Shown here: positions 5,701 to 63,129 of the stretch, in pieces
How positions within the stretch are numbered: the first letter of the stretch is position 1
Layout of the letters: the number at the start of each line of letters is the position of its first letter
Assembly (NCBI GenBank): GCA_903813345.2
Contig: CAIIXF020000002.1
Coordinates: 4,008,001-4,072,000, forward strand
Origin: Owenia fusiformis
Taxonomy: Eukaryota; Annelida; Polychaeta; Sabellida; Oweniidae
Direction: 5' to 3'
Length of the DNA stretch: 64,000 bases
The notes under the pieces: model-generated
What the model was told of the DNA's origin: nothing
Seen by the model: the letters and a program-made list of their open reading frames with translations, nothing else
Database searches by the model: none
Made by a program: the position numbers and the translations under genes

Positions 5701-5794
5701 CAAGAACACAAATGTGTACAAAATGTCCCCACCAGTGGGTGATCCCATCAAATGGTTATCCTGAAAATGAGTAGACAAGACTTTACCAACACAA

Positions 5795-6795: not shown

Positions 6796-7261
6796 ACAAT
6801 AAAAAAGTGATTATGTGTTTTTGCTGATTTCTTCTTACAAAATTATCACATATAACTACTGTTAGCAATAACATAGGCTTTTACAACAAAGTACATCTGA
6901 AATTATTTATAAACCTACTAAATAGTTAAAGTATGAAAACTCAAAAACACCATTCAATATGATACAAAGTATTATCGTGCGCTAACTTTTCTTAAGACAT
7001 TCAAAATGGCTGACATGACTGAGCTAACAGGTCCAAAACCTAATCAGATCTAGAATGAAGTGAGCTGAACAAGATGTTAAAGTTTTAAAAGCAACTGTGA
7101 AGCCGTTTTTCTTAAAGTTTGCAGACAAGGATTTTAGCATTTGACTTCAAAATGGCCGACAGGAAGTAGGTATCGAGTTAAAATTTTTTCATCCACATCT
7201 GTATGCACTCATAAGTTATCCCTGAAAATTTGAAGGTGATATCTGTAGAGGTTTTGGAGAA

Positions 7262-7325
7262 AACTCCCGGACGTACGGACGGACGGACAGACGGACGGAC
7301 GGACGTACGGACGGACAGACGGACG
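7262..7325. repeat. GGAC tetranucleotide microsatellite
   Basis: Imperfect (GGAC)n with GTAC and AGAC variants. It sits at the same place in the second element copy (about 45253-45305). Confidence 0.85.
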
Positions 7326-7379
7326 CGCCTAGGCCGACAATATGGCCCCACACTATGTGGTGGGGACATAAAAAATGGA

Positions 7380-9813: not shown

Positions 9814-10005
9814 CAGGCCCGTAGCCAGGGGGGGTTGATGAGTTCGAGTGACCCTCCCTGGCCAAAAAATCTTTCACAATCATGCAGTTTTTCACTATTC
9901 TTAGCACTTTTTAAGTGATTTTAGGACTAAAATTGTCTCAAGTGAACCCCCCCTGGAATTTTTCAAAAAGTGAACCCCCCTTGGCAAATCCTGGCTACGG
10001 GTCTG
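9814..10005. mobile_element. MITE, CAGGCCCG-end family, near-complete copy
   Basis: Starts CAGGCCCGTAGCCAGG and ends CCTGGCTACGGGTCTG. It is flanked on both sides by an exact 5-bp duplication TACTT (9809-9813 and 10006-10010). This is one of the two cleanest demonstrations of target-site duplication for the family. 192 bp, no coding sequence. Confidence 0.9.
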
Positions 10006-10291
10006 TACTTTGACAAAAGTTTGATTAAAGGGAAGGGGATATACACAAATAAAATAAAATGCACTTGTACATTAATTGATCTAGAGATTTTAACAACATT
10101 CTTTAAAAGTTATAGTGTTGCTTCAAGAACATGAGCCCCCCCCCTTCTTTCCTTATCTACTTCACCAACACAACACTTGTGGGGAGGTATGTAGTAAAGG
10201 TGGGGGGAGGGGTCAACACAGGCTTGTAGTTAGACTACGAAAGTTATTTGGAATATGAAATTCGTCAATGTCAGATAAGAGAAATTGTTCG

Positions 10292-21800: not shown

Positions 21801-24020
21801 TTCTTCCATGTAAATATGTGTAGCAGGCACATTCCAGAAACTACTAGAACAACAACAGATTCAATAGTACTCTTTGTAACTAACTTTTAAATAAACGAAC
21901 AAATTGTAACTTTGAGCAATCATATGCTCTACAGTGTCATTCAATCCTCAAAAGAAAGCAAATTTGTTCTCTTACAAGACAATCAAAAATATTTTTAGAG
22001 ACAAGAGGGGGTTATTAACTGCTCAATTGAGTCTCAATGGTTTTCTGTGGAGGCTGAAGAAAACCTACGATGTATCAACTATTATTTTTCACATCACTTG
22101 GTTAGTTATTTGTTTGGCAGGTTACAGGTGTGAACATATTAATAGAATATCTTTTGTTCGTGTTTTTTGGTGACTTCAGAAACTGGCATTTTACATATTT
22201 AAAGACAGGATATATATTGTTGAATCAGAGAGTTTCTAATTCTATCCAGATGTTCTCTAAATCTGTCAATGAAAATAACTTGCAGAATTGAGAGGGGAGA
22301 TGATATTGCTTATAATGATGCTTTTTTCATTTAAATCGAATTTTCCCGAAGCTGCAATAAAAATGAACAAAACGGCAAAAACAGCATTTGGTAAACAATA
22401 TGAAAATGAATGGAGATCGAGATGGAGATTGATGTTCTGATGATTATTAATATTCTCAAACTAAAACATTCTTTCAAACAATATATGCATACGTTATTTA
22501 AAAAAGTAAGACTCCGTATAATCCTAAATTTTCATAATTTTCACCATTTCAAAACGAGCGACACTAAGACATGATAAACACTTCATTGACAGGTCATTCA
22601 AAAAATTAACCGTTAATTTCTCCCGTATCATCTGCTTTTTGCAAATCCTCGGGGTAAAATTACTAAATCCTTCAAACATATTTTTTCTACTAAATTTTTA
22701 ATTTCTTTGCTGTGCATTATAACAAAACAAATGAAACCTGAGTATGTATGATTAGACTTCAAGACTAATCAGTGGAAAATCTTTGACATTTTTTCCACCC
22801 TCGCAAAATTCACAATTCGTCCATTTGACACGATTAATATAAATATTATGAGTGAAAAACATCCTCAATTAACAATATTATCTGCCGTAAAGCACAAAAA
22901 CACTTTACAGGATTTTATGAAACCTACTTTCAAGGATTTAAACTTGGTATAAATATTGAAAAAAATCATTTTCTAAGTTTAATTTAACAGTTCCTAAAAG
23001 CTCTCATTTTCTAGCGTTTTTTGTTCAATCAAAAAAAGCGTGACAAATTGGAATGCCCATATCTTTTTGACTGGTAATTATGGTCAGTTATAAATTGTAA
23101 ACGTGAACGTAAAATGTAAATTACCCCTATAATGTCATCCTTTCTTTAATTTTTTAAAGACCAATCATGGCACAAAAGACTGATTCATTTCAGTTTTACT
23201 GGAAAATTATAATTATAACTATAAATCAAGGTTTTGTATTACTTTACCTAGGAAGTCAAATAGATGTAAATAGCAGAATCAGATATGCACACAGAATGTC
23301 CTTTTGGAACTAACGAAATGACAAATGAGACTTTTTGCCTAAATATTAATTAGAATAGTCAAACAAAGTATGCTAATTAACTGCTGGAAAATTACAAAAT
23401 TTTAAAATTTGCATGTTTGAAATATATAACTGAATTGAATAAATTCAGCAAAAAAAATCATTTAAGAGATCACAACATTCTTTTAGTTCTTTTTTGTCTG
23501 TTGTAGTTGTAAAAAGAAGGAATATTTGAATGGAGAACAACCAGATAAATATTTAATGCAACTTCTATTTCTAGCATTGGTATTCAAAATTATTAAATGA
23601 CAAATGTGTTTCCTAATATCTCCAATAGTTTAATTTTGCTTCCTCAAAGAGAGCTTCAACTTACTAATAAATTAACACTCAGGCTAACTCATGATGCAAT
23701 TTACCATCTGTCATTTAAAAACAAAGATGTAAAACACATTTGAAATCTGAGGTCATAATAAGATTTGATCTCTGGAGTGGAAGATAATTATATCTTCCTT
23801 GATGTAACTTAAATAGGATTTAGACCTCTTATCACTGATGGAGATAAATTAGAAATAGTTAATTTTACATTTGATTGACTCGGGCCTACTTTATTGGCTC
23901 TTGAGGTAGATCTCCCATAAGCAGGTGTGATTTGGTTGCTGTGCACCTAATATTTCTGAATCTGACATCTGGCCCATAGTCGCTTTCTACTGGGTTGTAG
24001 CAACTGAAACCTTGTGAATC
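18841..24020. other. Intergenic, mostly featureless
   Basis: Noted only: a C-run/G-run pair at 19163-19215; a 20-bp direct repeat CCAATCAAATCACCTGGAGA at 19979 and 20055; and the recurrent 'aaagagagcttcaa' at about 23645. Many short frames, none with splice-flanked coding character or a recognisable domain. Confidence 0.4.
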
Positions 24021-24026
24021 AAGATC

Positions 24027-24172
24027 CAGGCCTGTAGCCAGAATTTTTCAAGGGGGATTCACTTTTCCCTAAAATTCTAGGGGGGGGGTTACTTTGACAT
24101 ATTTGGCCAAAAATCACATAAAATATGGTCAGAATAGTGAAAAACTGCATGATTTTGAGATAAATTTTGGTC
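24027..24172. mobile_element. MITE, CAGGCCCG-end family, right end missing but target duplication present
   Basis: Starts CAGGCCTGTAGCCAGAATTT and runs through the usual core to 'gataaattttggtc', where it stops short of the G-rich right end. Even so AGATC (24022-24026) is repeated directly after the break (24173-24177), and the match extends to AGATCCA when the first element bases are counted. Confidence 0.7.
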
Positions 24173-24477
24173 AGATCCAAGATGCATCTTGCCATGGTGA
24201 AATACATATTTATAGTCTGAGCTTTCTTTAATGAAGTGAAGTCAGAAGGATGTAAAAGGTACTCCGAAATTATTTTCTGACCCTAAGATAAACACAAAGA
24301 TAGAAATTTGGGGGACAGGGTCGTGACGTGAAGCTTCCTTTAGCCATATTATTCTACCATTATTTCTCAGCAGTCATGCAAAATAGTAGTCATGTGAAAC
24401 ATTAGTCATGTTAAATAGTAGTCATATAGCATAATTAATAAAATGTCCTTCGCTGATCCATTGTTACTTGGCAGATG

Positions 24478-29800: not shown

Positions 29801-30470
29801 ATTAAATAGACATTAATGCAGGTGACAATATCGTAAAATCATAAAACTTTAAGTTAAGTTTAAAATTATGCCTCAGTTTATGTGGTAGCCCTTTCTTTAG
29901 ATAGACACCTGATTCTCTTACATATACATTATCATATAAGGTTACATGTAAGTTGAAATATGACATTTCGTGTACTATAGAAAAGCAGAAAAGGAACATA
30001 TGGTTTTACACCTTGGGTAGACATGCACAAAGAAAAAGTGTTAAACATGTATTGCTATGTTATAAGTAATTTATAACATTTTTCTATGGAGTATTGAATG
30101 GTATATTGTACATTGGATTGTAAATTCATAATCTAAACCTACAATGTCGTGATTAATCATATATGGTCACAATAGGTAAGTCACAAAATTTTGTCAATTT
30201 TCAAAAGCAAATAAACAAAATATAATAAACATACACAAATATCATATTATACAGTAAAAGTCTATTTGTGTTATACCCATCTTCCTAACTTGATTGAAAA
30301 TGAGATAAAAATGAAGATAAACCAAAAGAAGTTTTATGATACTCAAATTCCCATGTTTGGGTGTCAAATTAGAATGATTCTTAGGGAATTGTGCATTTCT
30401 TATCTAATTTTACTTATTAATCATTGGCTTGATTTTATTATATTGTATAATCATAGATCAAAGGATGTAA
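26805..30470. other. Intergenic, mostly featureless
   Basis: A TATA-like TATAAAAGG sits in a locally GC-rich patch at 27088-27096 (+ strand), without a supported gene downstream. A C-run lies at about 28053. Nothing else recognised. Confidence 0.4.
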
Positions 30471-30471
30471 A

Positions 30472-31412
30472 CTCAAAATGTCTTTAGATTCATTTTGATA
30501 ACTACTAATATCAATAAAAACTCAACTCAAAATGTCTTTGATTCATTTTGAACTCGAATTGCTAAGAAAAACTCAACTCAAAATGTCTTTGATTCGTTTT
30601 GAGAACTCGAATTGCTAAGAAAAACTCAACTCAAAATGTCTTTGATTCGTTTTGAGAACTCGAATTGCTAAGAAAAACTCAACTCAAAATGTCTTTGATT
30701 CGTTTTGAGAACTCGAATTGCTAAGAAAAACTCAACTCAAAATGTCTTTGATTCGTTTTGAGAACTCGAATTGCTAAGAAAAACTCAACTCAAAATGTCT
30801 TTGATTCATTTTGAGAACTAAAATTGCTAAGAAAAACTCAACTCAAAATGTCTTTGATTCATTTTGAGAACTAAAATTGCTAAGAAAAACTCAACTCAAA
30901 ATGTCTTTGATTCATTTTGATAACTCAAATTGCTAAGAAAAACTCAACTCAAAATGTCTTTGATTCATTTTGAGAACTAAAATTGCTAAGAAAAACTCAA
31001 CTCAAAATGTCTTTGATTCATTTTGAGAACTAAAATTGCTAAGAAAAACTCAACTCAAAATGTCTTTGATTCATTTTGATAACTCGAATTGCTAAGAAAA
31101 ACTCAACTCAAAATGTCTTTGATTCATTTTGAGAACTAAAATTGCTAAGAAAAACTCAACTCAAAATGTCTTTGATTCATTTTGAGAACTAAAATTGCTA
31201 AGAAAAACTCAACTCAAAATGTCTTTGATTCATTTTGATAACTCGAATTGCTAAGAAAAACTCAACTCAAAATGTCTTTGATTCATTTTGAGAACTAAAA
31301 TTGCTAAGAAAAACTCAACTCAAAATGTCTTTGATTCATTTTGATAACTAAAATTGCTAAGAAAAACTCAACTCAAAATGTCTTTGATTCATTTTGATAA
31401 CTAAAATTGCTA
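30472..31412. repeat. 53-bp satellite-like array, ~18 units, with higher-order order
   Basis: Unit 'aaaaactcaactcaaaatgt...ttgctaag' repeats with an exact 53-bp period from 30567. Each unit has the inverted pair CTCAAAATG / CATTTTGAG around a 9-nt centre. Variants are ordered: four units with 'cgttttgagaactcgaattg' (A), then gagaactaaaattg (B) and gataactc.aattg (C) in the order BBC-BBC-BBC-B, then two gataactaaaattg (D). The first two units are degenerate. Confidence 0.95.
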
Positions 31413-32730
31413 AATGAAAGATTTAACTCAATGTACCTTTGATTTCTTTTGATATTAATTTGACTCAATTTAATTTCTATCAATAATTTGATAATAATCA
31501 AAACAAAAGTATTTGATCCAATTCGACATTAATATAAGCATAATGAAAACAAAAATGTGTCCCATTTGAAATGTTATACCTGAGACAATTAAAACTACTA
31601 ACTATCTAAAAATCACTATACAGTATAGCATCTGAATTAAATCCAAAATGATCAGTGCTTACAGTTTATCTATCATATCTTTTTCATCTTCCTCTTGTTC
31701 TCTCAAAAGCAAATATTGAACCGAATCAAAACAAACAGCTACAAAGATCACTTTAAGTGACTGGATTGTGTATGATTTAAGAAAATTACCATTCATGTAG
31801 GAAATCTGGAAAATTTGTGTATTCCATTATAACTTTGAAAAACTACCTCTCCATGTGATTAATTAAGGAGACAATAGGTAATTAAGGGTAATTATACTTC
31901 AATAATTGGTTCCCAGAAAAGGAAGTCTGGAACAGTTTTTGGAACTCAGCAAACTTGAGTTTGTTTATGTTCTGTATAATTCTTGTATTGTTATTGTTTA
32001 TAGGTTTAATTAATTTCATAATTGATTTTATACAAAAATATAATACTAAATGAAAAATAATGTTAAGAAATAAGTAATATTTTTCAAAAATATATTATGA
32101 ATGTTCCACATCACATTCGTAGCCAAATAATCAACTTTAAAATTGTAAACAAGATGGTCAAGGGGGGAAATTGAATATTAAATCTCTTTTCTAATTTTTC
32201 AACAGCTGAAGACAAAAAACAGGTGGATATATTATCAGGTTGATCACATATATATGTGATCAACATTTTATTCCAAAACATTGAAGAAAACTTCTTTAAT
32301 TATTCTATAATCTTTCTTTTTTAATCTCCAAGTTATCACTTTTCAACATGTGTTCAAAAAGAAAAATAGATTTTTAATCCACCCAATAAAAACACTGGGT
32401 TTAAAAAATGAATCAAACGTACCTAATTAATGGCTAATTATCTTATATTCTTTTTGGCTGGGTGTATTATAACTGTTATGATATAAATAAGCAGGACTGG
32501 ATCTAAAACAATTTAAATACAGTTATAATTCTGAAGAAGAGACACATCAAAAAGCATTGCAAAAAAATTAAAGTGAATTTCTAGTTCTGACACACTTGAT
32601 ATCAATATCCACATATATTGGAATATTTGGATATAATTCACGGATACACATAATGTAAACATCAACTGACAGTTGGAAAAAACATTGGATTAATATAATA
32701 TTAAGAAGAGTTTTAAAAGTTTAAAACAAT
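31413..32730. other. 5' flank of the gene at 32.7-41.9 kb
   Basis: AT-rich; contains a perfect 26-bp palindrome at 32239-32264. A TATA-like 'taatataatatt' lies about 35 nt before exon 1a. No other feature supported. Confidence 0.4.
32239..32264. repeat. Perfect 26-bp palindrome
   Basis: The half-site GTTGATCACATAT is followed immediately by its reverse complement. No spacer. It lies about 470 bp upstream of exon 1a. Confidence 0.9.
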
Positions 32731-34339: not shown

Positions 34340-34959
34340 ATGAATTCAAAGAGAACACAAATACAAATTATGAGAGCAGTGATACCACGGTACAGAATTG
34401 TTTCTAATATTTCAGATTTAGATGACGTTTTCGACGAAGACAATGGCGAAACTGATATAGATATTTTTGATGATCATCACATTGGTGATTCACACCAAAA
34501 TGACCAAAATGATCAGTCAAGTAGGTGTCATTCATTTGTAAATGATGCCAATTTGACAAGCAGAACATATTCTTTTGACAGTACGGATTTGACCAATAAA
34601 CTGATATTTGACCTTGACCCACGGGTGAGATCGTTCAGCTGTGACCTTGACCATTATGGTAAAGGTCACAATATGGACAGCATTGCGGCTATTAAACAAA
34701 ATACACATAACTTGATTGACCTTGCTGATAAAATGGTATGGTCTTTAGACCTATCAGAAATACATTCTCTGAGTAAACAAAGTGTTGACGATAAAAATGA
34801 CATTGCCAAAGATAATGACAAACTTGCCAATGACTTCAAGAAATATGAAATATTAGAAACAATTTCTGGATTTAATAGTCACCATGGTAACCAGGAAACA
34901 AGCATATGGAACACAATTTCAACTGACATATCACATGACATGTCACATGACACATACAG
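34340..34959 (+). CDS. First coding exon 1b of the unknown Ser-rich protein
   Basis: ATG with A at -3 and an in-frame TAG two codons upstream. 620 nt, 206 codons plus 2 nt (phase 2), ending ACATACAG followed by GTAATG, a good 5' splice site. The product is acidic and polar, rich in Asp, Asn and Ser, without signal peptide or membrane segment. Visible motifs are ISDLDDVFDEDN (about residues 24-35), three RxxS sites (RCHSF, RTYSF, RSFSC), and DKMVWSLDLS (34727-34756) shared with exon 1a. With exon 2 and the terminal exon the summed length is 3,705 nt, exactly 1,235 codons including the stop. No known family recognised; likely intracellular and disordered. Confidence 0.75.
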
Positions 34960-38101: not shown

Positions 38102-38309
38102 GGACTCTATAATGGATGGGAACAGCAGCTCGTACAGTTCATTCAGCGATATCTCCCCGCCATGCATAAAGCATCAAAGTCGTATCAATAGCACCGTTTA
38201 TCTTGATACAGACACATCCCCAAGTGTTAACAATACCAATCTCTCTGACTCAGTATTTATTGATGAAAAACCAGTCCAACAGCTCTATATTGATACTAAG
38301 CTTGAAATG
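38102..38309 (+). CDS. Exon 2 of the unknown Ser-rich protein
   Basis: Flanked by TTTCCAG and GTGAGT, both strong sites. 208 nt: it starts as the third base of an Arg codon (AG from exon 1a or 1b plus G) and ends in phase 0 after KLEM. The peptide begins DSIMDGNSSSYSSFSDISPP and is Ser/Asp/Asn-rich with no domain. The frame continues beyond the donor for 29 codons before a stop, so the exon end is set by the splice site. It has no counterpart upstream of the duplicated terminal exon. Confidence 0.8.
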
Positions 38310-39035
38310 GTGAGTGTTTTTTCTATTTCTTACTTAAATTATAATGCTATATTAATTCTTATGTATGATTGGAAATCTCTTATGATGGGTAAATAAAGAA
38401 ATACAATACAATATGGCCAAATATTCAATTTCACAAGTTAGATGTTTTATATTACAATGTCAGGTGAATTACAGGTGTAATTTTTGATTAAAATAAAACA
38501 ATTTGTTTTTATGTCAATGGTACTAATTGGCAGACATGTTTAATATCTGGGCTGTCATACTTTTCTGGAGAGTTTTAAAAATATCTAGAAATTGGGAATT
38601 ACCTGATAGGAAATGTGTATTGGTTCTATTTGTAAATCTAATATTATTCCTCAATATTTATAAATAATAAATAAATCAAACATTTGCTTAATTTTCTAAT
38701 CTGCAAAGTTTCTGTTACTTTAGTTATAGAGTTTAAGAGATTTCAGATTTCTTAGGAAAACAATAGTGCTTCAGATTTGTTTAAAACTTTCCTTTTGTTT
38801 TATTTAACATGGGGATTAAATAATATTAATATTTCACCATATATGACACCTGTCTCTATTACACATGGCAAAATTTTCCTCAGTTTGGTCAACAGTTTTA
38901 AAATTAGCTTAAGCTTAGGTATATAATAAAATATTTAATAGTAAGACACCATTCTGAAATTAAACACCATACTGTTCACATCTATCTACAAACATGAAAT
39001 TATTCAAGAAATTAAAAGTGAATTCTGCTTTACAG
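38310..39035 (+). other. Intron 2, partly duplicated at 45.7-46.1 kb
   Basis: From about 38600 on it aligns with 45690-46108, with many substitutions and indels. The last 75 bp are notable: a TATA-like GTATATAATAAAAT (38919-38932), then a 30-bp block before the ATG at 38994 that is nearly identical in the two copies. The intron ends CTGCTTTACAG. Confidence 0.6.
38919..38932 (+). promoter_or_regulatory. Possible internal TATA-like element, conserved in copy 2
   Basis: GTATATAATAAAAT here corresponds to GTATATGATAAAAT in the duplicate (about 46033-46046). In both it lies about 65-75 nt before an ATG that opens the frame into the terminal exon. A function as internal promoter is inference. Confidence 0.25.
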
Positions 39036-41912
39036 ATTAAGATCTTCAAGGACCATATGGCGCTCAAGGCAGAGTTAGAAGATGCTAAGACTAAGGCAGA
39101 GCAACTTATAGACTCTCGGGATCTATCAACAGCACTCTCGGAGATTCCCACTATGGCCTCACAATGGGAACTATCCAGTGACCAGAAATATGGCGATTCT
39201 ACATATGGACAATCGACACTCAGTATCGACCAACAAAGCTATGGAAGTTATTACATCGATAGTCAGAACCCAGCCAGTTATCGTCCAAATTCGACAGAAA
39301 TAGGCGGTCCCGTGCCAACATTGATTGTGACAAGTGCGACAGATGATAGCCAATCAAGTTGCAGCCTTTCAACATCGGATATCAGTCGATCAAGCTCTAT
39401 ATCTAGCGATGTCGGTGATTATCGTAAGGAATCTACAAACCTGACAGAGAACACTCTTCAAACTGGAGGTGAAGATCTTTACAACAAACTATGTGAAAAT
39501 GTTGGAACAATCAAAGCTACAAATAAATCCCATAATACTGCTGATGTAAGCAGACGGAATACAACCACCAGAGCCATCTATAAAGACATGAATCAAACAA
39601 ACATGTCTGGCAATGTGCAATGTTGTGTTATGCCTCCCAAACTTCGTCAATCTTTAAAGACAACCAGTGACAACTATAAACTATCAAATGCTCCAAAGAA
39701 AGCATGCAGTGAACCAAAGCTCAATAATTTCCACACGCTTAAGGACGATCTTGTGCAGTTCCACTCTGAACAAAATATTCATAAACTTAAACACAGAGAC
39801 TCTAAACGTAGTTCAAAGCGCCAGAAGAAACGACTCAGCTCCATCAAAGAATGTGATAATGACATTCCAGAATGTTACGATCTTGAGAAGGAGTTCCCCA
39901 GCCCCAGAATTCCTACTCTGGAGCAGACAATCCAACATGGCTGCCTTCCAAACATCATGCGAAGAAAATCCCGTTCACAGTCTCAGAAACAGAAGTCAAC
40001 AAAGTCTCAAACCACTACATCGGAGATGCCCCCTCCAGTTTTGCCTCCCCGTGTCGCAAGAGGGGTCAGAGCAAATCCCATAGTGTCGCAGTCTAGTTCT
40101 AGTCGCTCATCAACTGAATCTGTATTACCCCGTACCTCAACCAAAAAGCACCTGACCTCAGACCTACCCCGTACCTCCACAAAAGTGAGATTAATCTACA
40201 AAACTGAAAGTGACATTGAAACAAACGCTGGTGCTCAAGCTATGAGGCGAACATCAGGAAAATCTGACCTTCAAACTGCCAACACACATTCAACATCAAC
40301 ATCATCTGTTACTGGTAAACCACCATTGCCACCTCGATCTTCATCATCGAAATCTCGCAAGGGATCTACTTCATCAACCCAGAGTGAATGCTTATCAACT
40401 ACAGCATTTGAACTTCGTCGCACCTACGAGCAGCGACAGAGCACAGGAAGGACCCCCACTAAGCTTCCATTCCGACCCTCAAGTGACGGAGACAGTTACT
40501 CCAGTTCCAGCTCAGATGTAGATACAGACAGTGTATCAGTATGGACAATATATGAATCTGAAGTCAATGATTTTGATGATGTGTTCCAGGAGCCCTCAAA
40601 CTCTGAGTCTCAGAGACCCCTTAGCAGCAACGCAGATGAAAGTGACTTAACCATCAGTGAATTATCAAGCATTGCCAAATACCCCAAGCATAATGAGTGT
40701 GTTGATCATGCCCTGCATGAAGCTTTGGGTGAACCATGCTCCATGTTTCTCCAGGACAGACCCCTTAGTCCCACCACAAGTCATATCAGCAGTAAACCAG
40801 ACTCTAGTAAGAGGTATTATTCATCAGACAGTGACCTTGATCTCACATCAGTAAGTTCGGACATTGAAAATTTCTCAATTAGCCCAGTGTCCATGTCTTC
40901 ATGTACAAGCAGCCAATGTGACGTCTGCTCCAAACAGCCATGTACCCATAATGCACCTCCCCAACACTTAAGATATGCAGTCTGTAAGATCGCCAACCCT
41001 CATCAACCAATTGAAGACATTGATTGCTCAATGAATGCAACATGCGCATCAATCCCTGATATGGGAGAAGTTGGCACGCCATCTATCTACCATGACACGC
41101 AAGATTATAACCATGTCATACCAGATGACCTTTCTGGAACATGGAACAGCGAGAGTGACGATAGTTCTCTACACGAGTCCGACATCTACTCAGATGACTC
41201 AACTGGGTACCCTATTGTTCCCCTCCATACCCCAGCAACTACCGCAACCCCCCACAATCTCACTGTTAAATCAACCCCAAGGATGAAAAATAAGGCTCGC
41301 CCCAACCCCAAGCGTCTCCAATATGAAGAAATCGCTCCATTGTTAGCTGATGGCCAGAACTCCATGCATTCCCGTCACCGTGGTCTCCCACCAGTTGGCT
41401 GTGAGTCAGCCGATCTCAACAAACTCAAGGATGAATATGATTCAGGAATTAGTACACAGAGCTCAATCGACTGCCAGGGGAAAGTTAAACAGCCTAAGAT
41501 TGTGAACAATAATACAATCCACACCTTTAACCAATCATATGGTGCTACAACAATGAACAATCGTAACCACAGAGTGACCAATCACAGCCAGGCGTCAAAT
41601 GCTTATAACAACCAATACAATCACTACAACACCCAACAGGGTCAGCAATCGGACAATTACGCTGAAAATATGTACGGACAATGTGCACCCGCTCCTAGTC
41701 TCGCATCCCAGAATTCAACCAGTTCTTGTTATTCACAGAGTTCTCGGCAATATCTTCAATCACGTCAAGGCCCAAGTGGTTGCGACTCAGTTCAGAGTGA
41801 GGCTGCGGCTAAAGATCGCAAACGAGAACTTAAACGTAGACTGAAAAAATTCAGCAAGCAATACAAAATGACAGATGGAAGTAATACTTTCCAGCATCTT
41901 GGTCATTGCTAA
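39036..41912 (+). CDS. Terminal coding exon of the unknown Ser-rich protein
   Basis: 958 codons plus TAA, entered in phase 0 after CTTTACAG. The frame is open 42 nt further upstream to an ATG at 38994, a possible alternative start. In order: a short helical/coiled-coil stretch (IKIFKDHMALKAELEDA); long Ser/Thr/Asn-rich disordered sequence; RRKSRSQSQ; PVLPPR (about 40034-40051) and PPLPPR (about 40320-40339), both PxxPxR class II SH3 ligands, separated by a doubled LPRTSTK; VSVWTIYESEVNDFDDVF; CDVCSKQPC (40917-40943); NATCASIPDMGEVGTPSIYH; and a basic tail RKRELKRRLKKFSKQYK near the C terminus. No enzyme domain, signal peptide or membrane span. An adaptor or scaffold role is a guess from the SH3 ligands only. 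AATAAA signals follow at 42048, 42119 and 42549. Confidence 0.85.
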   Translation: MKIFKDHMALKAELEDAKTKAEQLIDSRDLSTALSEIPTMASQWELSSDQKYGDSTYGQSTLSIDQQSYGSYYIDSQNPASYRPNSTEIGGPVPTLIVTSATDDSQSSCSLSTSDISRSSSISSDVGDYRKESTNLTENTLQTGGEDLYNKLCENVGTIKATNKSHNTADVSRRNTTTRAIYKDMNQTNMSGNVQCCVMPPKLRQSLKTTSDNYKLSNAPKKACSEPKLNNFHTLKDDLVQFHSEQNIHKLKHRDSKRSSKRQKKRLSSIKECDNDIPECYDLEKEFPSPRIPTLEQTIQHGCLPNIMRRKSRSQSQKQKSTKSQTTTSEMPPPVLPPRVARGVRANPIVSQSSSSRSSTESVLPRTSTKKHLTSDLPRTSTKVRLIYKTESDIETNAGAQAMRRTSGKSDLQTANTHSTSTSSVTGKPPLPPRSSSSKSRKGSTSSTQSECLSTTAFELRRTYEQRQSTGRTPTKLPFRPSSDGDSYSSSSSDVDTDSVSVWTIYESEVNDFDDVFQEPSNSESQRPLSSNADESDLTISELSSIAKYPKHNECVDHALHEALGEPCSMFLQDRPLSPTTSHISSKPDSSKRYYSSDSDLDLTSVSSDIENFSISPVSMSSCTSSQCDVCSKQPCTHNAPPQHLRYAVCKIANPHQPIEDIDCSMNATCASIPDMGEVGTPSIYHDTQDYNHVIPDDLSGTWNSESDDSSLHESDIYSDDSTGYPIVPLHTPATTATPHNLTVKSTPRMKNKARPNPKRLQYEEIAPLLADGQNSMHSRHRGLPPVGCESADLNKLKDEYDSGISTQSSIDCQGKVKQPKIVNNNTIHTFNQSYGATTMNNRNHRVTNHSQASNAYNNQYNHYNTQQGQQSDNYAENMYGQCAPAPSLASQNSTSSCYSQSSRQYLQSRQGPSGCDSVQSEAAAKDRKRELKRRLKKFSKQYKMTDGSNTFQHLGHC

Positions 41913-43118
41913 TAACTGTGTATCACAGAAAACTATTTAGCGTTACAAATTACTGTGCTTGTTACAGATTGTTGTTACAGAATACTTTTTGTGTCAGCCA
42001 GACTTAAATAACTGAAACCAAATATATTTTTGAATAGTCGGAACAACAATAAACCAAGTACTTTCCTGGATGTTATCAAATTATAGTTCACCTTTATGCT
42101 CAATCATTATGTACTTTAAATAAAACTATTTTTGATTTTAAAGATTTAACATCAAAAGGTCAAATCAAAATGACACACTTCCTGACACTATTTTAAATAG
42201 TTGATTACTGATCATGTATTTTGATTACAAAATATGGCTATATTTTTGTGTGTAGTTCTATGATCAAGTCAAAAGCCATTTAGAGCGTAGCGTATAGTGA
42301 AATTAAAGGTCACATGTAAGGTACATGTATATGTAATTTAACCAACATATAGCTTGTAATATTTATGATCATAATAATTTAAAATCAAAATGAAGAATGA
42401 CAATCAAGTAATTATAAAAATTGAGGCAAACAAATCAAAAATATGGTTAATTAGATTATGATTACAGTTTTATGTAATTAAAAAGTAATTAGAGAGTAAT
42501 TTGAATATGTGTAATTTGCATAAATATATATGCCAAACATAATTTGTAAATAAACCAATGCCAAAATTGTGATTACTATAGAAACATTTTTTGTGTGTAT
42601 GTATATGTTGTCATGGTTTCCAAATTAAAATTCAAAACATCACATTCACATTTGTAGTTTTATTTTTATTGTAAAAACGTAAAATATTTGGAGAAAAATT
42701 ATTGGAAACATATAAAGCATTCGCATACATCAAAATAGATTAATTAGATTATATATAGCAAATAGTATAATAGTATGGGATGGTAGGCAAGCAATATTGA
42801 TGTCACATTGACTGAAAATATATGAAGGAAACAAATATATTCATGTACATAGTGTATATAATGTAAATAACAAACACACAAAAAGCAATAAACAAAACAC
42901 AGTTTATATATATATATTTAAATATCTATTTTGTCTATTATTTGTTTAAAGATATATATAAATTATGATGAAAGCATTATTACCCCCCCCCCCCAGGCTC
43001 TCATTTCAAAACTGCAATATTGTTATAAAAACATCAATTTCTATCACCCATTAAATAATTCCATTCCTGTTTGTCAAAAAACTACATCAAAAATATAATG
43101 GTCTCCCCAGAATTGGAA
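41913..43118 (+). other. 3' UTR and downstream flank
   Basis: AATAAA occurs at 42048-42053, 42119-42124 and 42549-42554; any could end the mRNA. The part at 42850-42955 matches 48690-48785 behind copy 2, so the duplication extended past the gene end. C-run at about 42984. Confidence 0.5.
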
Positions 43119-43540
43119 CCTGCACCCAGTTGAAAGTAGCCAGTACCCAGTTGAAAGTAATCTGTACCCAGTTGAGAATAATCTGTACCCAATTGAAAGT
43201 AACCCGTACTCAGTTGAAAGTAACCTGAACACAGTTAAAAGTATCCTGCACCCAGTTGAAAGTGACCTGCACCCAGTTGAAAGTGACCTGCACCCAGTTG
43301 TAAGTGACCTGCACCCAGTTTAAAGTATCCTGCACCCAGCTGAAAGTATCCTGCACCCAGTTGAAAGTGACCTGCACCCAGTTGAAAGTGACCTGCACCC
43401 AGTTGAAAGTGACCTGCACCCAGTTGAAAGTAACCTGTACCCAGTTGAAAGTAACCTGAACGCAGTTAAAAGTATCCTGCACCCCGGTGAAAGTTACTTG
43501 CACCCGATTGAAAGTTTAGAACTTGTACTGCACCCAGTTT
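43119..43540. repeat. 21-bp tandem array, ~20 units
   Basis: Unit 'cacccagttgaaagtgacctg' with variants (taacc, tatcc, gtaccc). As 21 is a multiple of 3, the minus strand shows an open frame of VQVTFNW heptapeptides; this follows from the unit length and is not taken as a gene. It lies between two blocks (42.85-42.95 and 43.70-43.80 kb) that are both present behind copy 2, where the array is absent. Confidence 0.95.
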
Positions 43541-44170
43541 AAATTCCATTGGCACTGTTCAGTTAATTCAAATGAGGTCAAGAAATGAACTATTTCAGTG
43601 ATTTAAAAAAAACTGGTCATCTTTTAAATTTTTACATGGCCATAAATACAAGAAAAACGAAAACCATTAAAATGAACAAAATTAGTTACTTTACTAACTT
43701 TTGAAAGATGGCAGCACATTCTTACATGCTAAATTGAAAATATGACAGTTTTGCTTTAGAATAGATGGCAGCAGTTTTCAGAATTCAAATTGTTATGGTT
43801 TGGCCTTTCCCCTCATTTTAACCAAATTTACATGTTGACTTGTGTTTTACTTAAATATTAATGTCATGTCATTAAAATGTCACCAGCTGCCACTACAGAT
43901 GCTAAACGCCAATAAAAAATAGATAACAGCAACGCTTGCAGCAAATCCTATGAAACAGCCATAGCTGCCAATTTTGCAAAATCCTTCCACTATACTTTAT
44001 CAGTACAGCAAAAATCGTATAATAACACACAAAAAATGGCCACCATTTTCAAAATCGTCACTCACTAGCCATATTGTCATAAGACAGTGTTCTCTGCTTA
44101 TGAGTATTCACATGTCAAATAGAGACAAAATTGTTCCATCACTTTTTGAGTTATAGTAAAAGATGTAAAA
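43541..44170. other. Downstream flank, end of duplicated unit
   Basis: 43700-43790 ('gaaagatggcagcacattct', 'atgacagttttgctttaga', 'atagatggcagca') matches 48855-48935. 43866-43915 weakly resembles a dispersed repeat seen at 51556 and 60955. No gene. Confidence 0.45.
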
Positions 44171-44187
44171 ACACAAATGTGTACAAA

Positions 44188-45349
44188 ATGTCCCCACCAA
44201 TGGGTGATCCTGTCAAATGGTTATCCTGAAAATGAGTAGACAAGACATTACCGACACAATTTGAGGACGGGAAATCCAAATGGCCACCTTAAATTTTAAT
44301 CAGAATGCCATAAAATTAGTCAGTTCTAGATTTTCATACTATGAACCACCCCAGAAAATTTGAAATTGATCCGTCAAACAGTTAACCAGAAAACGGGTAA
44401 ACAAGACTTTACAGACAAGATTTAAGGATGGAAAATCCAAAATGGCTGCCTTGAAATTTACCCAAAATGCCAAAAAACTAATCAGATCTAAATTTTCATA
44501 CTAAAAATCATCCCTGAAAATTTGAAATTGATCTACCAAACGGTTCACCTGAAAACGTGTAGACAAGACTTTACTGACAAGATTTTAGGACGGAAAATCC
44601 AAAATGGCCGCCTTGACATTTACCCAGAATGCCAAAAAACTAATCAGATCTAGATTTTTGTACTAAGAATCATCCCTGAAAATTTTAAATTTTAAAATGG
44701 TTAAAAGAACCCAACAGTTCACCTGAAAACGTGTAGAGAAGACTTTACAAACAAGATTTTAGGACGAAAAAATGCAAAATGGCCGACAATAAAAAAAAAT
44801 GATAATGAGTTTTTGCTGATTTCTTTTTACAAAATTATCACATATAACTACCATTAACAATAACATAGGCTTTTACAACAAAGTACACCTGAAAGTATTT
44901 ATAAAGCTACAAAATAGTTAAAGTATGAAAACTCAAAAACACCATTCAATATGATACAAAGTATTATCGCGCGCTAACTTTTCTTAAGACATTAAAAATG
45001 GCTGCCATGACTGAGCTAACAGGTCCAAAACCTAATCAGATGTAGAATGAAGTGAGCTGAACAAGATGTTAAAGTTTGAAAAGCAACTGTGAAGCCGTTT
45101 TCCTTAAAGTTTGCGGACAAGGATTTTAGCATTTTACTTCAAAATGGCCGACAGAAAGTAGGTATCGAATTTTCATCCACATCTGTATGCACCGATAAGT
45201 TATCCCTGAAAATTTGAAGGTGATATCTGTAGCGGTTTTGGAGAAAACTGCCGGACGTACGGACAGACGGATGGACAGACAGACAGACAGACAGACAGAC
45301 GGACGCGCCTAGGCTGACAATATGGCCCCACACTATGTGGTGGGGACAT
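44188..45349. mobile_element. Non-autonomous element with TGTCCCCACCA inverted ends, copy 2
   Basis: Same ends (ATGTCCCCACCA / TGGTGGGGACAT), same internal order and same microsatellite as copy 1 at 5723-7369. It has only about 4 of the 160-bp units, hence about 1.16 kb. The last 22 bp (CACACTATGTGGTGGGGACATA) are present twice in a row (to 45372). It lies at the junction between the two halves of the gene duplication. Confidence 0.8.
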
Positions 45350-45374
45350 AACACACTATGTGGTGGGGACATAA

Positions 45375-45464
45375 TAAAACTGCATGATTTTGAAATAATT
45401 TTGGGCCAGGGGGGGGGGGGTTCGCTCGAACCCATCAAACTCCCCCCCCCTGGCTACGGGCCTG
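45375..45464. mobile_element. MITE, CAGGCCCG-end family, right half only
   Basis: Carries 'aaaactgcatgattttgaaa', the G-run, GGTTCGCTCGAACCCATC and CCTGGCTACGGGCCTG. The left half is missing; the break coincides with the doubled tail of the preceding element. Confidence 0.75.
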
Positions 45465-46108
45465 CAATACTAACACTCAGATATAAAAATTCAAGAAAGA
45501 GCTTTTGGAATTTGACCATAAAAAACAACACAGTAATCAATGCCCAGGCACAGGTGCTATGTAGAAGTACATGAATCAAGACTCCTGTGGCTCTAGAATT
45601 TTTCTAAACTCTATAATTTTTCTAAACAAAAGCAATTATGCAAAATCGCTTAACCAATCTTGCATCTAACCAAATATATAGAATTTATGAATTATGTGAA
45701 AGGAAATATACATTGGTTCTATTCACCTGTATATAGATATGTATAGCATATTTGTAATAATATTCTTCATCAATATTTGTTAGAATAGAATAAATGAAAC
45801 ATATGCTCAAAACTGTGAACATTCTGTTGATTTACCTAATTATCTGTAAAGATTAAAATATTTCAAAGCACCTTAGAAAACATTCAGATTAAAATTTTCC
45901 ATTTGTTTGGCTTAACATGGGGATTAAATATTATTTAATTCAATATATTCATATATATGATACCGATCTCTTTAAACATAGAGCAACATTTCCTCAGTTT
46001 GGGTAACAGTTTAAAATTAGCTTATTAGTACATGTATATGATAAAATTTTTAATAGCAAGGCACTACTTGGAATTCTGATACCATACTGTTCACATCTAT
46101 CTACAAAG
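45465..46108 (+). other. Duplicated intron 2 segment upstream of copy 2
   Basis: From about 45690 it aligns with 38600-38993 ('aacatggggattaaata', 'tttcctcagtttgg', 'cagttt.aaaattagctta'). The 30 bp before the ATG at 46109 are almost identical between copies. No counterpart of exon 2 or exon 1 is found here. Confidence 0.65.
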
Positions 46109-48058
46109 ATGAAATTATTCAAAAAATTAAAAGTGAATTCTGCATTGCACATCAAGATCTTCAAGGACCATATGGCGCTCAAGGCAGAGTTAGAAGATGC
46201 TAACAATAAGGCAGAACAAGCTACAGACTCTAGGGAACTTTCAAAGGCACTCTCTGTGATTCCAAGAATGGCCTCTCAATGGGAACTATCCAGTGATCAG
46301 AAATATGGCGATTCCATATATGATCAACAAAGCTATGGAAGTTACTATAGTGACAGTTCTTCAATGCCGACATTGGATGCAGCAAGTGTGACAGGGAATA
46401 GCCAATCAAGTTGCAGCTTTTCATCATCTGACCTCAGTCGAACTCTCCAAAGTGGAAGTAAAAATCTGGATTACAAACTCCGTGAAAATGTAAAAACTTT
46501 GAAAGTTACAAATGCATCCCATAATACTGTTGATATAAGCAGACGGAATACACCTACTAGAGCCATCTATAACGACATGAATCAAACAAACATGTCTGGC
46601 GATGTGCAATGCTGTGTTATGCCTCTCAAACTCCGTAAATCTTTAAAGACCACCAATAACACCAATAAACTGTCCAATAGACCAATGAAAGGAGGCAGCG
46701 AACCCGAGCTCAATAAGATCCACACGCTTAAGGATGAATTTGGGCAGTTCCGATCTGAACAAAATATCCACAAAATGAGCTCTAAAATTAGATCCAAACT
46801 CAAGAAGAAACGCCTTGGTTCCATAAAAGAATCTGACAATGACATTCCAAATTGTTGCGATCTTGAAAAGAAGTTCCCCAGTCCCAGAATCCCTACTCTG
46901 GAGCAGACAATTCAACATGGCTGCCTTCCAAACATCAAGCGCAGAAAATCTTGTTCACAGTCACGGAAATCAAAGATGCCAATCAAGTCTCAAACTAACA
47001 CATCTAAGATGGTGCCTCCTCCTTTCGCAACCCTTGACACAAGAGGGCCTAAAGCAACCAAAAAAGTGTCGCAATCTAGTTCCAGTCACTCATCAACTGA
47101 CTATGTATTACCCCGTACCTCAACCAAAAAGCACCTGACCTCAGACCTACCTCGTACCTCCACAAAAGTGAAATTGATATACAAAACTGAAAGTGACATC
47201 GAAAAGAACACAGATGCAACACCTGTTAGGCAAAAATCAGAAAAATCTCATCTGCAAACTGCCGACACACAATCAACATCAACGCCACGATCTATGTTGT
47301 TTAAATGCTGTAAATGCTTATCAACCACAGCTTGTGAACTTCGTCGTACTTACGAGCGGCGACAGAGCATAGGAAAGACATCCACTACGCACACATGTGA
47401 ATCCTCAAGCTCGGACAGTGTATCAGTGTGGACAATCTATGAATTAGAAGTCAATGATTTTAATGATGTGTTCAAGGAGCCCTCAAATTCAGTTGAGATT
47501 CAAAGACCCCTCGGCAGCAAAGATGAAAGTAACTCAAACATCAGAGAACTGTCTAGTATTTCCAAGTATCACAATCACAATGAGTGTGCTGATCATGCAG
47601 TACATAACACTTTGGAAGAACGGGGGTCAATATTCCAACAAAAGAGACCCCTTAGTCCCACCACCAGTCATATCAGCTGTAAACCAGACTTTAGCAAGAG
47701 GTATTTTCCATCAGACAGTGATCTTTCATCGTTAAATTCAGACATTAGCCCCGTGTCTATATCTTCCTATACCAGTAGCCAGTGTGACGTCTGCTCCAAA
47801 CAACCATGTTCCCATAATGCATTTCCCCAACACTTGGGATATGCAGTCCGTAAGATCGCCAACTCTCATCAACCAATTGAAGACATCGATTGCTCAATGA
47901 ATGCGACATGCGCATCAATCCCTGACATGGGAGAAGTTGGCACGCCATCTATTTACCATGACACGCAAGATTATAACCATGACACACCAGATGACCTTTC
48001 TGGAACATGGAACAGTGAGAGTGACGATAGTTCTATGTATGAATCTGACACTGACTGA
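46109..48058 (+). CDS. Tandem duplicate of the terminal exon, shortened, possibly its own gene
   Basis: 649 codons plus TGA, roughly 85% identical in DNA to the terminal exon by eye, with all indels in multiples of three. Retained: IKIFKDHMALKAELEDA, LPRTSTKKHLTSDLPRTSTK, CDVCSKQPC and NATCASIPDMGEVGTPSIYH. Lost: both PxxPxR motifs (now PPPFATLDTR and TPRSMLFKCC) and the last ~240 residues with the basic tail. The acceptor CAG of the parent is CAC here, so the ATG at 46109 is the natural start unless a weak AG at 46155-46156 (phase 0) is used. The TGA aligns with TCA at 41190-41192, and an AATAAA follows at 48127. It may be a young gene with its own start, an alternative terminal exon, or a pseudogene; the intact frame argues against long neutrality. 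Confidence 0.65.
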   Translation: MKLFKKLKVNSALHIKIFKDHMALKAELEDANNKAEQATDSRELSKALSVIPRMASQWELSSDQKYGDSIYDQQSYGSYYSDSSSMPTLDAASVTGNSQSSCSFSSSDLSRTLQSGSKNLDYKLRENVKTLKVTNASHNTVDISRRNTPTRAIYNDMNQTNMSGDVQCCVMPLKLRKSLKTTNNTNKLSNRPMKGGSEPELNKIHTLKDEFGQFRSEQNIHKMSSKIRSKLKKKRLGSIKESDNDIPNCCDLEKKFPSPRIPTLEQTIQHGCLPNIKRRKSCSQSRKSKMPIKSQTNTSKMVPPPFATLDTRGPKATKKVSQSSSSHSSTDYVLPRTSTKKHLTSDLPRTSTKVKLIYKTESDIEKNTDATPVRQKSEKSHLQTADTQSTSTPRSMLFKCCKCLSTTACELRRTYERRQSIGKTSTTHTCESSSSDSVSVWTIYELEVNDFNDVFKEPSNSVEIQRPLGSKDESNSNIRELSSISKYHNHNECADHAVHNTLEERGSIFQQKRPLSPTTSHISCKPDFSKRYFPSDSDLSSLNSDISPVSISSYTSSQCDVCSKQPCSHNAFPQHLGYAVRKIANSHQPIEDIDCSMNATCASIPDMGEVGTPSIYHDTQDYNHDTPDDLSGTWNSESDDSSMYESDTD

Positions 48059-48170
48059 AACGACTCCACTGGGGATGTATGTTCCCCTCTATATGATGCC
48101 AACATTGAGCAATATGAGTGTAACCAAATAAATATTTATCAGAGTCAGGCGCCAAATGTCTGAGATGCTG
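48059..48170 (+). pseudogene. Decayed 3' remainder of copy 2
   Basis: After the TGA, homology continues briefly ('gactccactggg', 'tgttcccctc'). It then jumps about 330 bp in the parent to 'gtaacca...agtcaggcgccaaatg' (parent 41572-41605), followed by another TGA. So the region encoding the C-terminal part has been deleted and no longer encodes the tail. AATAAA lies at 48127-48132. Confidence 0.7.
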
Positions 48171-48194: not shown

Positions 48195-48632
48195 TTCATT
48201 TATAGAAAAATTTGTTTAAGTGAACACCTCTTTCTTGTGAACACCTGTATCTAGTAGACATCTTTTCTCTGCACATACTTAGCAGGCCTGAACCCCCTGG
48301 CCAAACATTCTTTCAAAATCATGCAGTTTTTCATCATTTGGACCAAATTTTAAGTGATTTTGGCCATTTTTGGACCAAAATTGTCAAAAGTGAACCCCCC
48401 TTGGCAAATCCTGGCTACGGGCCTGCTAAGTCTAGCTCCAAACTCTTTGCCAACAAGTGTGTGAAGTGTGTAATCAAGTTGAGAGGGGGGGGGGTCACAG
48501 AGGCTTGTAGCTAGACTACACATACTCTACTGACTTCTACATAAATTATCCTATCTGTATTGAACACCTCCCATTACTGAAAAGTTTTTTATTGGCAAAA
48601 ATGTTCAATACACACAGGTCTTACTGTATATA
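48195..48632. mobile_element. Pogo/Tc1-like MITE interrupted by a CAGGCCCG-end MITE
   Basis: The left part has 'gtttaagtgaacacctc' and 'tgtgaacacctgta'; the right part ends 'caatacacacaggtcttactgta', matching the TIR of this family. The insertion at 48283-48425 splits it. Left TIR is degraded. Confidence 0.6.
48283..48425. mobile_element. MITE, CAGGCCCG-end family, nested copy
   Basis: Starts CAGGCCTGAACCCCCTGGCC and ends CCTGGCTACGGGCCTG. Flanks CTTAG (48278-48282) and CTAAG (48426-48430) match at 4 of 5 positions. It sits inside the older pogo/Tc1-like MITE. Confidence 0.8.
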
Positions 48633-49486
48633 ATGTAAAAACTGCATAGTTTAATAATATTAGGTAAATACTGTTTATAATGTTATAATAAAATGTAAAT
48701 ACTACATATAATATAAATAACACATATTGACAAAGAAATAAACGTAACAAAGTCTATATAATTTGAAGAGTTCTGTTTTGCCTATTACTGATTTTGTACT
48801 TGTAATTATGACATAGCTCAGACTTCATTTTAAAATATAATTATTATTTTATAAGTATTGAAAAGATGGCAGCACATTCTGATGTACTACACTGAATAAA
48901 CATGTCAGTTCTGCTAATAGATGGCAGCATGTTTCATATCCTGAATCCACATATGATCTTTTTAACAAATGAACCAAGGGCGAATGTAATGCTTGGAATG
49001 TGTCTGTTTTCTCTGTTTTTCTGTTCGTATTAGCCTTATTTACATATCATACATTTAAGTTAATCAATCATGTAGCTAATGATATGTACGGATTGCAATG
49101 AAATAGAGTAAGATTACCGCTAAACGGTGCTGAAAAAGGTGCCTAGGTCTGAGAAAGCTAACCCCTTTTACCACTACTTTGTAATGAGGACATGCAAAGA
49201 CCCGGATGTCGTATCATTTCGTTTGGTACACATACTAAGGCCCGGGTATTAAATAAAACCACATTTCACAAAGACAGTGTTTCACAACATTTTAGTCAAT
49301 TCCACTGAATAGAAACTTGCTAGGTAAGTTCAAAGCACTCCAACCATAGGGAGACAATGGAAATAATGGGTCCTGGGATCTATATTGACCAAGGCAATAC
49401 GATTCAACATTCCACATAGGTTTTCTTCAAAAGTGACAATATCAATTTGTGAGTATTTGAAATAAGTTCAGTTGTATTTGAAATAA
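48633..49486. other. Duplicated 3' flank, then unrecognised
   Basis: 48690-48785 and 48855-48945 match 42850-42955 and 43700-43790 behind the parent gene. The rest is unrecognised. Confidence 0.5.
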
Positions 49487-49491
49487 GTACA

Positions 49492-49760
49492 GTAAAACCT
49501 GTGTAAGTGGAAAGTCTTAATTCCACTTAAATGTATTCTATTGAGGAGGTGTTCCAGTCTCGTAGACAACTTTTTCCAACTTTCTTTTTGAAAAATTCCA
49601 GGGGGTTCAATTATTGACAAGTAAAATGGCCAAAATCACTTAACAAGTGCTCAAAATGGTGAACAATTATATGAATTTGAAAGATTTTTTGGCAAGGGGA
49701 AATCCACTAGAACCGCCCCCCCCCCCACCTGGCTACAGGCCTGTATTCTACACATAACAG
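49492..49760. mobile_element. Pogo/Tc1-like MITE left part, interrupted
   Basis: 'tacagtaaaacctgtgtaag' followed by 'tggaaagtcttaattccactt' is the best-preserved left TIR of the family, preceded by TA. At 49555 a CAGGCCCG-end MITE intervenes, and only a short piece ('tctacacataac') continues after it. Confidence 0.65.
49555..49743. mobile_element. MITE, CAGGCCCG-end family, nested copy
   Basis: Starts CAGTCTCGTAGACAAC and ends CCTGGCTACAGGCCTG, flanked by TGTTC (49550-49554) and TATTC (49744-49748), 4 of 5 matching. The core is well preserved. Confidence 0.8.
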
Positions 49761-56556: not shown

Positions 56557-56759
56557 AAGGCCCGTAGCCAGGATTTGCCAAGGGGGGTTCACTTTTTGAA
56601 AAATTCCAGGGGGGTTCACTTGTGACAATTTTGGTCCAAAAATGGCCCAAATCACTTAAAAAGTGCTCAGAATGGTGAAAAACTGCATGATTTTGTATGA
56701 ATTTTTGGCCAGGGGGGGGGGGTCGCTCGAACCCATCGAACCCCCTGGCTACGGGCCTG
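56557..56759. mobile_element. MITE, CAGGCCCG-end family, best-preserved copy
   Basis: Starts AAGGCCCGTAGCCAGG (first base changed) and ends CCTGGCTACGGGCCTG, with an exact 5-bp duplication TGAAT on each side (56552-56556, 56760-56764). 203 bp. Order: TIR, 'ggggggttcactttttgaaa', 'aaagtgctcagaatggtg', 'aaaactgcatgattttg', G-run, TIR. Non-coding. Confidence 0.92.
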
Positions 56760-62576: not shown

Positions 62577-63129
62577 TAGTAAAACCTATACAAGTAAAAC
62601 ACTTTTGGTTCTTAAAAACAAGTTCCAGGTACAGAGATTCATTTTACAGGAAATTTGTGAGAAACTGGATTTTGAAGTGTTCTACTTTCAAAGGTATTCC
62701 ACTTGTAAAGGTGTTCCACTTACAAAGGTGTTCCACTTGCAAAGGTGTTCCACTTGCAAAGGTATTCCGCTCGCAAAGGTATTCCGCTCGCAAAGGTGTT
62801 CTACTTGCAAAGGTGTTCCACTTGCAAAGGTGTTCCACTTGCAAAGGTGTTCCATTTGCAAAGGTGCTCCACTTGCAAAGGTATTCCACTTGCAAAGGTG
62901 TTCCACTTGCAAAGGTGTTTCACTCGCAAAGGGATTCCGCTCGCAAAGGGATTCCACTTGCAAAAGTTTCTACTTGCAAAGGTGTTCCACTTGCAAAGGT
63001 GTTCCACTTGCAAAGGTGTTCCACTTGCAAAGGTGCTCCACTTGCAAAGGTATTCCACTTGCAAAGGTTTTCCACTTGCAAAGGTGCTCCACTTGCAAAG
63101 GTATTCCACTTACACAGGTTTTACTGTAA
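62577..63129. mobile_element. Pogo/Tc1-like MITE swollen by an internal 17-bp array
   Basis: Left 'tagtaaaacctatacaagta' and right 'ttacacaggttttactg' are the family TIRs with TA outside. The interior is almost wholly a 17-bp minisatellite whose unit resembles the sub-terminal sequence of the element itself (ccacttacacagg versus ccacttgcaaagg). Confidence 0.75.
62678..63117. repeat. 17-bp tandem array, ~26 units
   Basis: 'ttccacttgcaaaggtg' and variants (attccgctcgcaaagg, gctccacttgc). No stop codon arises in most frames, so five long overlapping open frames of Lys/Cys/Phe/Val repeats appear; they are artefacts of the unit sequence. A few units are 16 or 15 bp and shift the phase. Confidence 0.95.

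Follow-up and report, generated by a model that had tools for sequence, protein, structure and literature searches.

Downstream of a predicted three-exon gene of the annelid Owenia fusiformis lies a second, diverged version of much of its terminal exon (copy 2), and the question raised by this locus is whether copy 2 is a protein-coding gene of its own, an alternative end of its parent or a relic. The stretch of DNA analysed (the window; 64,000 nucleotides) has a G+C content of 27 to 45% in 2-kb steps and, with its spliced gene structure and dispersed repeats, looks eukaryotic. The parent gene is made up of three predicted exons:

34340 to 34959, + strand: predicted parent exon 1, opening with ATG (206 codons plus 2 nt; donor ATACAG/gtaatg; in-frame join with exon 2)
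38102 to 38309, + strand: predicted parent exon 2 (acceptor ttccag/GGACTC; donor GAAATG/gtgagt)
39036 to 41912, + strand: parent terminal exon 3, exons 1 to 3 joined giving a frame of 1234 amino acids

Phases match at both exon junctions of the joined gene (+ strand), and the acceptors of exons 2 and 3 fall in the top 0.8% and top 3.7%, respectively, of the 3417 AGs in the window, as ranked with a splice matrix. Exon 3 belongs to an open stretch of 982 codons (38964 to 41912), within which the frame from an ATG shared with copy 2 runs from 38994 to 41912. Serine and threonine make up 24% of the parent protein. Neither the exon 3 frame nor copy 2 matched a Pfam family at E up to 1, the exon 3 frame matched no PDB chain at the same threshold, exon 2 likewise matched no Pfam family at E up to 1, and the single match of exon 1 was insignificant and below the cut-off (E 0.27). 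Collections of viral and prokaryotic contigs yielded no relatives of the exon 3 frame (7 and 21 pattern matches, respectively, none confirmed by tblastn), as expected of a eukaryotic gene. Scanning the window with Rfam (gathering scores) and for tRNAs returned no matches.

The window is otherwise rich in repeats, one of which stands between the two copies:

44167 to 45351, + strand: repeat element lying between parent and copy 2, built of 162-bp tandem units

This element is about 88% identical in its best pieces to 5702 to 7371 and ends in a CGGA/GACA microsatellite. A dispersed short repeat family occurs on both strands (48293 to 48401, 49584 to 49699, 56558 to 56759, 9814 to 10013, 24019 to 24174, 497 to 651 and 721 to 883); one of its members lies within the decayed sequence on the 3' side of copy 2 and, by eye, precedes CTGGCTACGGGCCTGC, which recurs near 45450. 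The segment 12152 to 12544 aligns with its own reverse complement in self-comparison (palindrome-like, 68%) and overlaps an open frame of 193 codons that has no Pfam match at E up to 1. Tandem arrays of 53-bp (30470 to 31413, about 18 copies) and 17-bp units (62677 to 63119, 26 copies) are also present; since 17 is not a multiple of three, the latter carries long open frames in several phases on both strands, which would pass for genes to a gene finder.

Parental positions 38579 to about 41229 have their aligned counterpart at 45672 to 48093, so that the duplicate comprises intron as well as exon sequence:

38579 to 38966, + strand: duplicated, decaying 3' part of parent intron 2 (counterpart 45672 to 46081)
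38967 to 39035, + strand: 69-nt conserved block that closes parent intron 2 (counterpart 46082 to 46150)
45672 to 46108, + strand: duplicated intron part and leader before copy 2
46109 to 48058, + strand: copy 2 open reading frame, 649 codons and a TGA stop in a single frame, with the old acceptor CAG changed to CAC at 46148 to 46150

Copy 2 thus carries parental intron sequence, and its shorter frame is homologous to part of a longer one, as expected of a DNA-mediated partial duplicate. Both frames are present as the initial annotation described them; counted from the shared ATG they span 38994 to 41912 and 46109 to 48058 (649 codons and a stop), and the latter sits in an open stretch of 683 codons (46007 to 48058). 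Exons 1 and 2 were, as it held, left unduplicated: tblastn found no second copy of them in the window, near copy 2 or elsewhere, nor further copies of the gene, and its additional matches were at chance level (best E 0.11). What it called a copy of the terminal exon is homologous but not whole, the parent being 240 codons longer. It did not remark on the lost acceptor and upstream ATG, nor on a shortened end without the parental PxxPxR motifs.

Over 647 aligned codons (38994 to 41189 against copy 2), the first 14 of which match parental intron, nucleotide identity is 82.8% (1607 of 1941 bases) and amino-acid identity 74.7% (483/647). The divergence previously put at roughly 15% by eye is therefore 17.2% of aligned codon sites (334/1941), or 16.0 to 16.2% in alignments that leave gap lengths unforced. 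Differences are concentrated at third codon positions (13.1%, 13.0% and 25.5% at positions 1, 2 and 3). The frame of copy 2 contains no internal stop over its 649 codons, in agreement with the initial annotation, and no net frameshift, whereas the longest open stretch in 500 dinucleotide shuffles of copy 2 reached at most 186 codons in the three forward frames. The claim that every indel is a multiple of three held in the protein-guided alignment (12 internal gaps, 10 in copy 2 and 2 in the parent), a procedure that forces gaps to whole codons, but not in unforced nucleotide alignments, where 4 of 21 or 6 of 19 gaps in the reading frame are not multiples of three. When the gap lists were inspected, these frame-breaking gaps proved to sit in neighbouring sets that sum to whole codons (8+1, 17+25, and 28 in copy 2 offset by 1 in the parent), each set bringing the sequence back into frame. 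The duplicated intron part, said to align much more poorly, does so with respect to indels, whose lengths break the triplet frame in 16 of 18 or 12 of 13 cases. Its substitutions (64/340 or 76/345 sites, 19 to 22%, measured on 38600 to 38966; K2P 0.22 to 0.26) are just slightly more frequent than the 16% of the reading frame in unforced alignments, and its identity between parent and copy 2 is about 78 to 81%.

The intron does not diverge evenly up to the exon. The 69-nt block at its end, consisting of a 27-nt leader and the ATG-led 14 codons (MKLFKKLKVNSALQ), aligns without gaps and with 5 differences, whereas in none of 345 overlapping 69-column windows of the remaining intron alignment do the copies differ at fewer than 13 columns, gaps included. 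The leader, with 1 difference against an intron minimum of 3 among 392 windows, is the more striking part; the 42-nt coding piece, with 4, is near the intron minimum of 5 among 377 windows. In copy 2, the in-frame ATG at 46109 lies 42 nt upstream of the old exon boundary, in former intron. An in-frame ATG that stays open to the end occurs in 20% of random noncoding 69-mers here, so the ATG by itself is weak proof of a start. All 5 differences in the block, however, fall in the codon-position-3 phase (1 in the leader and 4 in the 14 codons), whereas mismatches in the upstream intron are spread over the three phases (23, 21 and 20), which suggests probable translation of the codons MKLFKKLKVNSAL(Q/H) in copy 2, and possible translation in a short form of the parent as well.

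The parental exon 3 acceptor CAG reads CAC in copy 2, which bears on whether copy 2 is an alternative last exon of the parent, with exon 2 joined past exon 3 to a new acceptor ahead of copy 2, to yield two proteins with common N-termini and homologous C-terminal parts. There are candidates for such an acceptor: an AG stands directly before the ATG in copy 2 (46107 to 46108; AC in the parent) and is in phase 0 relative to exon 2, and other AGs in frame end at 46156, 46165 and 46183. These substitutes score poorly on the same matrix, ranking in the top 25.5% (46108), 41% (46156), 32% (46165) and 21% (46183) of the AGs in the window, and between 46080 and 46260 it revealed no acceptor matching the parental one in quality. 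Precedents exist, as far as the published accounts are excerpted here, in the oyster AOX gene, whose terminal exon 10 is tandemly duplicated and alternatively spliced to the same upstream exons (PMC5589949), and among human tandem duplicated exon substitutions, in which C-terminal events are enriched (77/236; PMC9741552). Copy 2 resembles the former as a 3'-terminal coding exon duplicated in tandem in an invertebrate with both versions retained, and the latter as homologous exons in tandem, but differs from the oyster exon as excerpted (PMC5589949) in that its original acceptor is gone and its own ATG opens the frame, and from the human cases as excerpted (PMC9741552) in that splicing to the parent is unsupported. 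We consider an alternative last exon rather unlikely.

Whether copy 2 has been kept as a protein was addressed by the ratio of nonsynonymous to synonymous change and by survival of the frame. The between-copy dN/dS was 0.32 to 0.42 by four methods: 0.316 with NG86 (0.245 to 0.411 in 200 bootstraps), 0.354 with LWL85, 0.378 by maximum likelihood (0.309 to 0.467 in 60 bootstraps) and 0.424 with YN00 (0.331 to 0.575 in 100 bootstraps, 18% of which were at least 0.5). A pairwise ratio taken without an outgroup mixes both branches and is not divisible between the two lineages, and the fair null is therefore a neutral copy beside a constrained parent. With a fully constrained parent, NG86 values at or below the observed one arose in 0.5 to 3.5% of simulations (200 runs per setting), and with a parental omega of 0.1 or more in 0 to 1%. 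The stop test is stronger than dN/dS and does not depend on the parent. Under neutrality the copy would have gathered on average 7.7, 8.9 and 12.0 stops at 0.11, 0.13 and 0.19 substitutions per site in its own lineage, where 0 of 1000 simulations at each value were free of stops and the Poisson probabilities of zero stops are 4.5e-4, 1.4e-4 and 6e-6, respectively. Lower neutral rates weaken this test, stop-free outcomes appearing in 0.3% (0.08 per site) and 2.7% (0.05 per site) of 1000 simulations. The intron K2P (0.22 to 0.26) is below dS (0.35 to 0.44), and if the intron is taken as the neutral rate, the dN of 0.14 is little above the roughly 0.12 that a neutral copy alone would add; hence it is the stop and frame tests that carry the case for selection.

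The pattern of substitutions along the frame was also considered. Amino-acid changes are clustered (variance/mean 1.69, permutation P 0.0002) and synonymous changes are not (0.57), as expected if both copies keep motif blocks. An identical run of 38 residues carries 4 synonymous changes; under neutrality such a run has P 0.10 at 0.08 and 0.009 at 0.11, and the number of residues in long runs P 0.89 at 0.08 and 0.16 at 0.11, so that both are weak at low rates. Gene conversion as the source of the conserved patches found no support, since 61% of 5000 permutations gave a synonymously identical run at least as long as the longest observed (19 codons). Towards the copy 2 stop (alignment columns 650 to 734) we observed synonymous changes in 8 of 70 codons, about half the frequency of the preceding segments (16/68, 35/151 and 45/182; together 96/401). 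Copy 2 has probably been under protein-level selection for nearly all of its history, as the initial annotation proposed, on the strength of the stop and frame-retention tests and, less strictly, of dN/dS.

The two copies also differ at their C-terminal ends. The copy 2 TGA (48056 to 48058) stands opposite a parental TCA codon (41190 to 41192), beyond which the parent extends a further 240 codons (41190 to 41909), and the 238 parental codons from 41196 had no second tblastn match in the window at E up to 10. Traces of the missing part persist at the nucleotide level:

48059 to 48158, + strand: relic of the parent coding tail after the copy 2 stop, similar on to about parent 41229
48693 to 48794, + strand: possible relic of the distal 3' UTR (against parent 42843 to 42947, 71% identical, E 4e-13)

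A weaker similarity of the tail relic to parent 41537 to 41601 was also detected (68.6%, E 4e-4), and no counterpart of the parent coding sequence between about 41229 and 41537 was found after the copy 2 stop. An AATAAA lies at 48127, within the tail relic. The 3' UTR match is just suggestive, being AT-rich, obtained with the low-complexity filter off and accompanied by weaker matches nearby on both strands. Together these remnants suggest that the duplication originally spanned the whole exon and UTR and that the tail decayed afterwards; this degenerate tail can be set against the frame ahead of the stop, which has stayed intact.

The loss of 240 C-terminal codons and the decay past the stop are also what would be seen if copy 2 had functioned as a protein through most of its existence and had recently died through loss of transcription or translation. 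The frame tests limit how long such a neutral period could have lasted. From Poisson expectations combining stops with frameshifts at the intron rate, the probability of an intact frame is about 1e-3 or less for 0.02 substitutions per site and 0.007 to 0.03 for 0.01, giving an upper limit of roughly 0.01, and is 0.08 to 0.18 for about 0.005, with which a recent death is compatible. The frame is nevertheless intact up to its stop, and the decay beyond suggests that the truncation is not recent, yet the part upstream of it has remained whole. We regard a recent death as distinctly improbable. Similar sequences in tandem are also a common mark of haplotig errors, which raises the possibility that copy 2 is an unmerged second haplotype or a misjoined allele. 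This is very improbable given the divergence (17% in coding sequence, about 20% in the intron), the absence of exons 1 and 2 from one side and of the full tail from the other, and a repeat element that precedes copy 2 and has no equivalent before the parental exon. A neutral pseudogene since the duplication, intact by luck, is extremely improbable: partial duplicates are, in the part of the review drawn on here, commonly classed as pseudogenes, many of them maybe dead ends (PMC3449122), and 10 of the 12 internal gaps fall in copy 2, but with no stops against means of 7.7 to 12 at 0.11 to 0.19 and a frame that survives every indel this reading is rejected by the stop and frame calculations, most firmly at a lineage divergence of 0.11 or more, and the frame, though truncated relative to the parent, is not disabled. 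A processed retrocopy is rejected by the parental intron sequence present and by the missing exons 1 and 2.

The explanation that we think probable is that copy 2 is a DNA-mediated tandem partial duplicate kept as a protein, most likely a stand-alone single-exon gene. The duplicated segment of the three-exon gene would have comprised the 3' portion of intron 2 together with the terminal exon and, possibly, the 3' UTR, and purifying selection would have retained the copy as a separate protein, with translation starting at the ATG at 46109 in the former intron and stopping at the TGA at 48056 to 48058, short of the parental C-terminal tail. Having its own in-frame ATG upstream of the former splice site, copy 2 could dispense with exons 1 and 2. 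We infer that the parental structure is the ancestral state and that copy 2 is transcribed, and likewise where it starts and what it may do.

The start within the intron was perhaps inherited from the parent. We advance tentatively, as a possibility, that the parent itself has a short form lacking exons 1 and 2 that starts in the intron (ATG 38994), and that the duplication copied just this unit of leader, start and terminal exon, after which the acceptor would have been dropped as unneeded. The small number of changes across the 69-nt block in both copies, with the 4 in the 14 codons all at third positions, speaks for this. With the parental side free to change, zero changes at the 28 first and second codon positions have P 0.005 to 0.046; the splice signals of the parent may also constrain part of the 69-nt block and account for part of the conservation around the start.

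The predicted product of copy 2 is likely a mostly disordered, adaptor-like protein with a helical N-terminal segment, in which several conserved motif blocks are retained. Its AlphaFold model (two sequences) is of low confidence, with a mean pLDDT of 39, 580 of 649 residues below 50 and block means of 70 to 83 in residues about 11 to 60 alone, and shows helices at residues 2 to 37 and 41 to 66. An amphipathic membrane anchor at the new N-terminus was unsupported, the helical moment of residues 1 to 18 ranking 88th of 632 windows. Both PxxPxR motifs of the parent (PVLPPR and PPLPPR), which we take to be of the SH3-binding type, are missing from copy 2. SH3 binding through these two motifs would then be lost, and copy 2 could partially antagonise its parent or be a specialised form of it.

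Partial gene duplicates are frequent in worm and fly genomes, according to the portion of the Katju review considered here (PMC3449122), and on testable criteria copy 2 fits this known and common class. It shares with the duplicates outlined there (PMC3449122) possession of part of the parental frame, an origin at the DNA level and the possibility of a new role. It differs from the cases described in that portion (PMC3449122) in that it seems to start in a parental intron and keeps an intact frame at a dS of about 0.35 to 0.44, and in that the copies are here unpolarised by an outgroup. The intron-derived start and the long retention of the frame are thus what is less ordinary at this locus. 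Judged by titles and the beginnings of abstracts, no like case, in which an internal promoter and duplication turned an isoform into a gene, came to light, and we claim no priority. For annotation, a locus of this kind calls for caution, as pipelines could label copy 2 as a pseudogene or merge it with its parent. More generally, a partial duplicate without the first exons of its parent needs a new start, and a ready-made ATG in a former intron would be one route to it; if the parent uses the same start, this locus would clearly exemplify the separation of an isoform into an independent gene.
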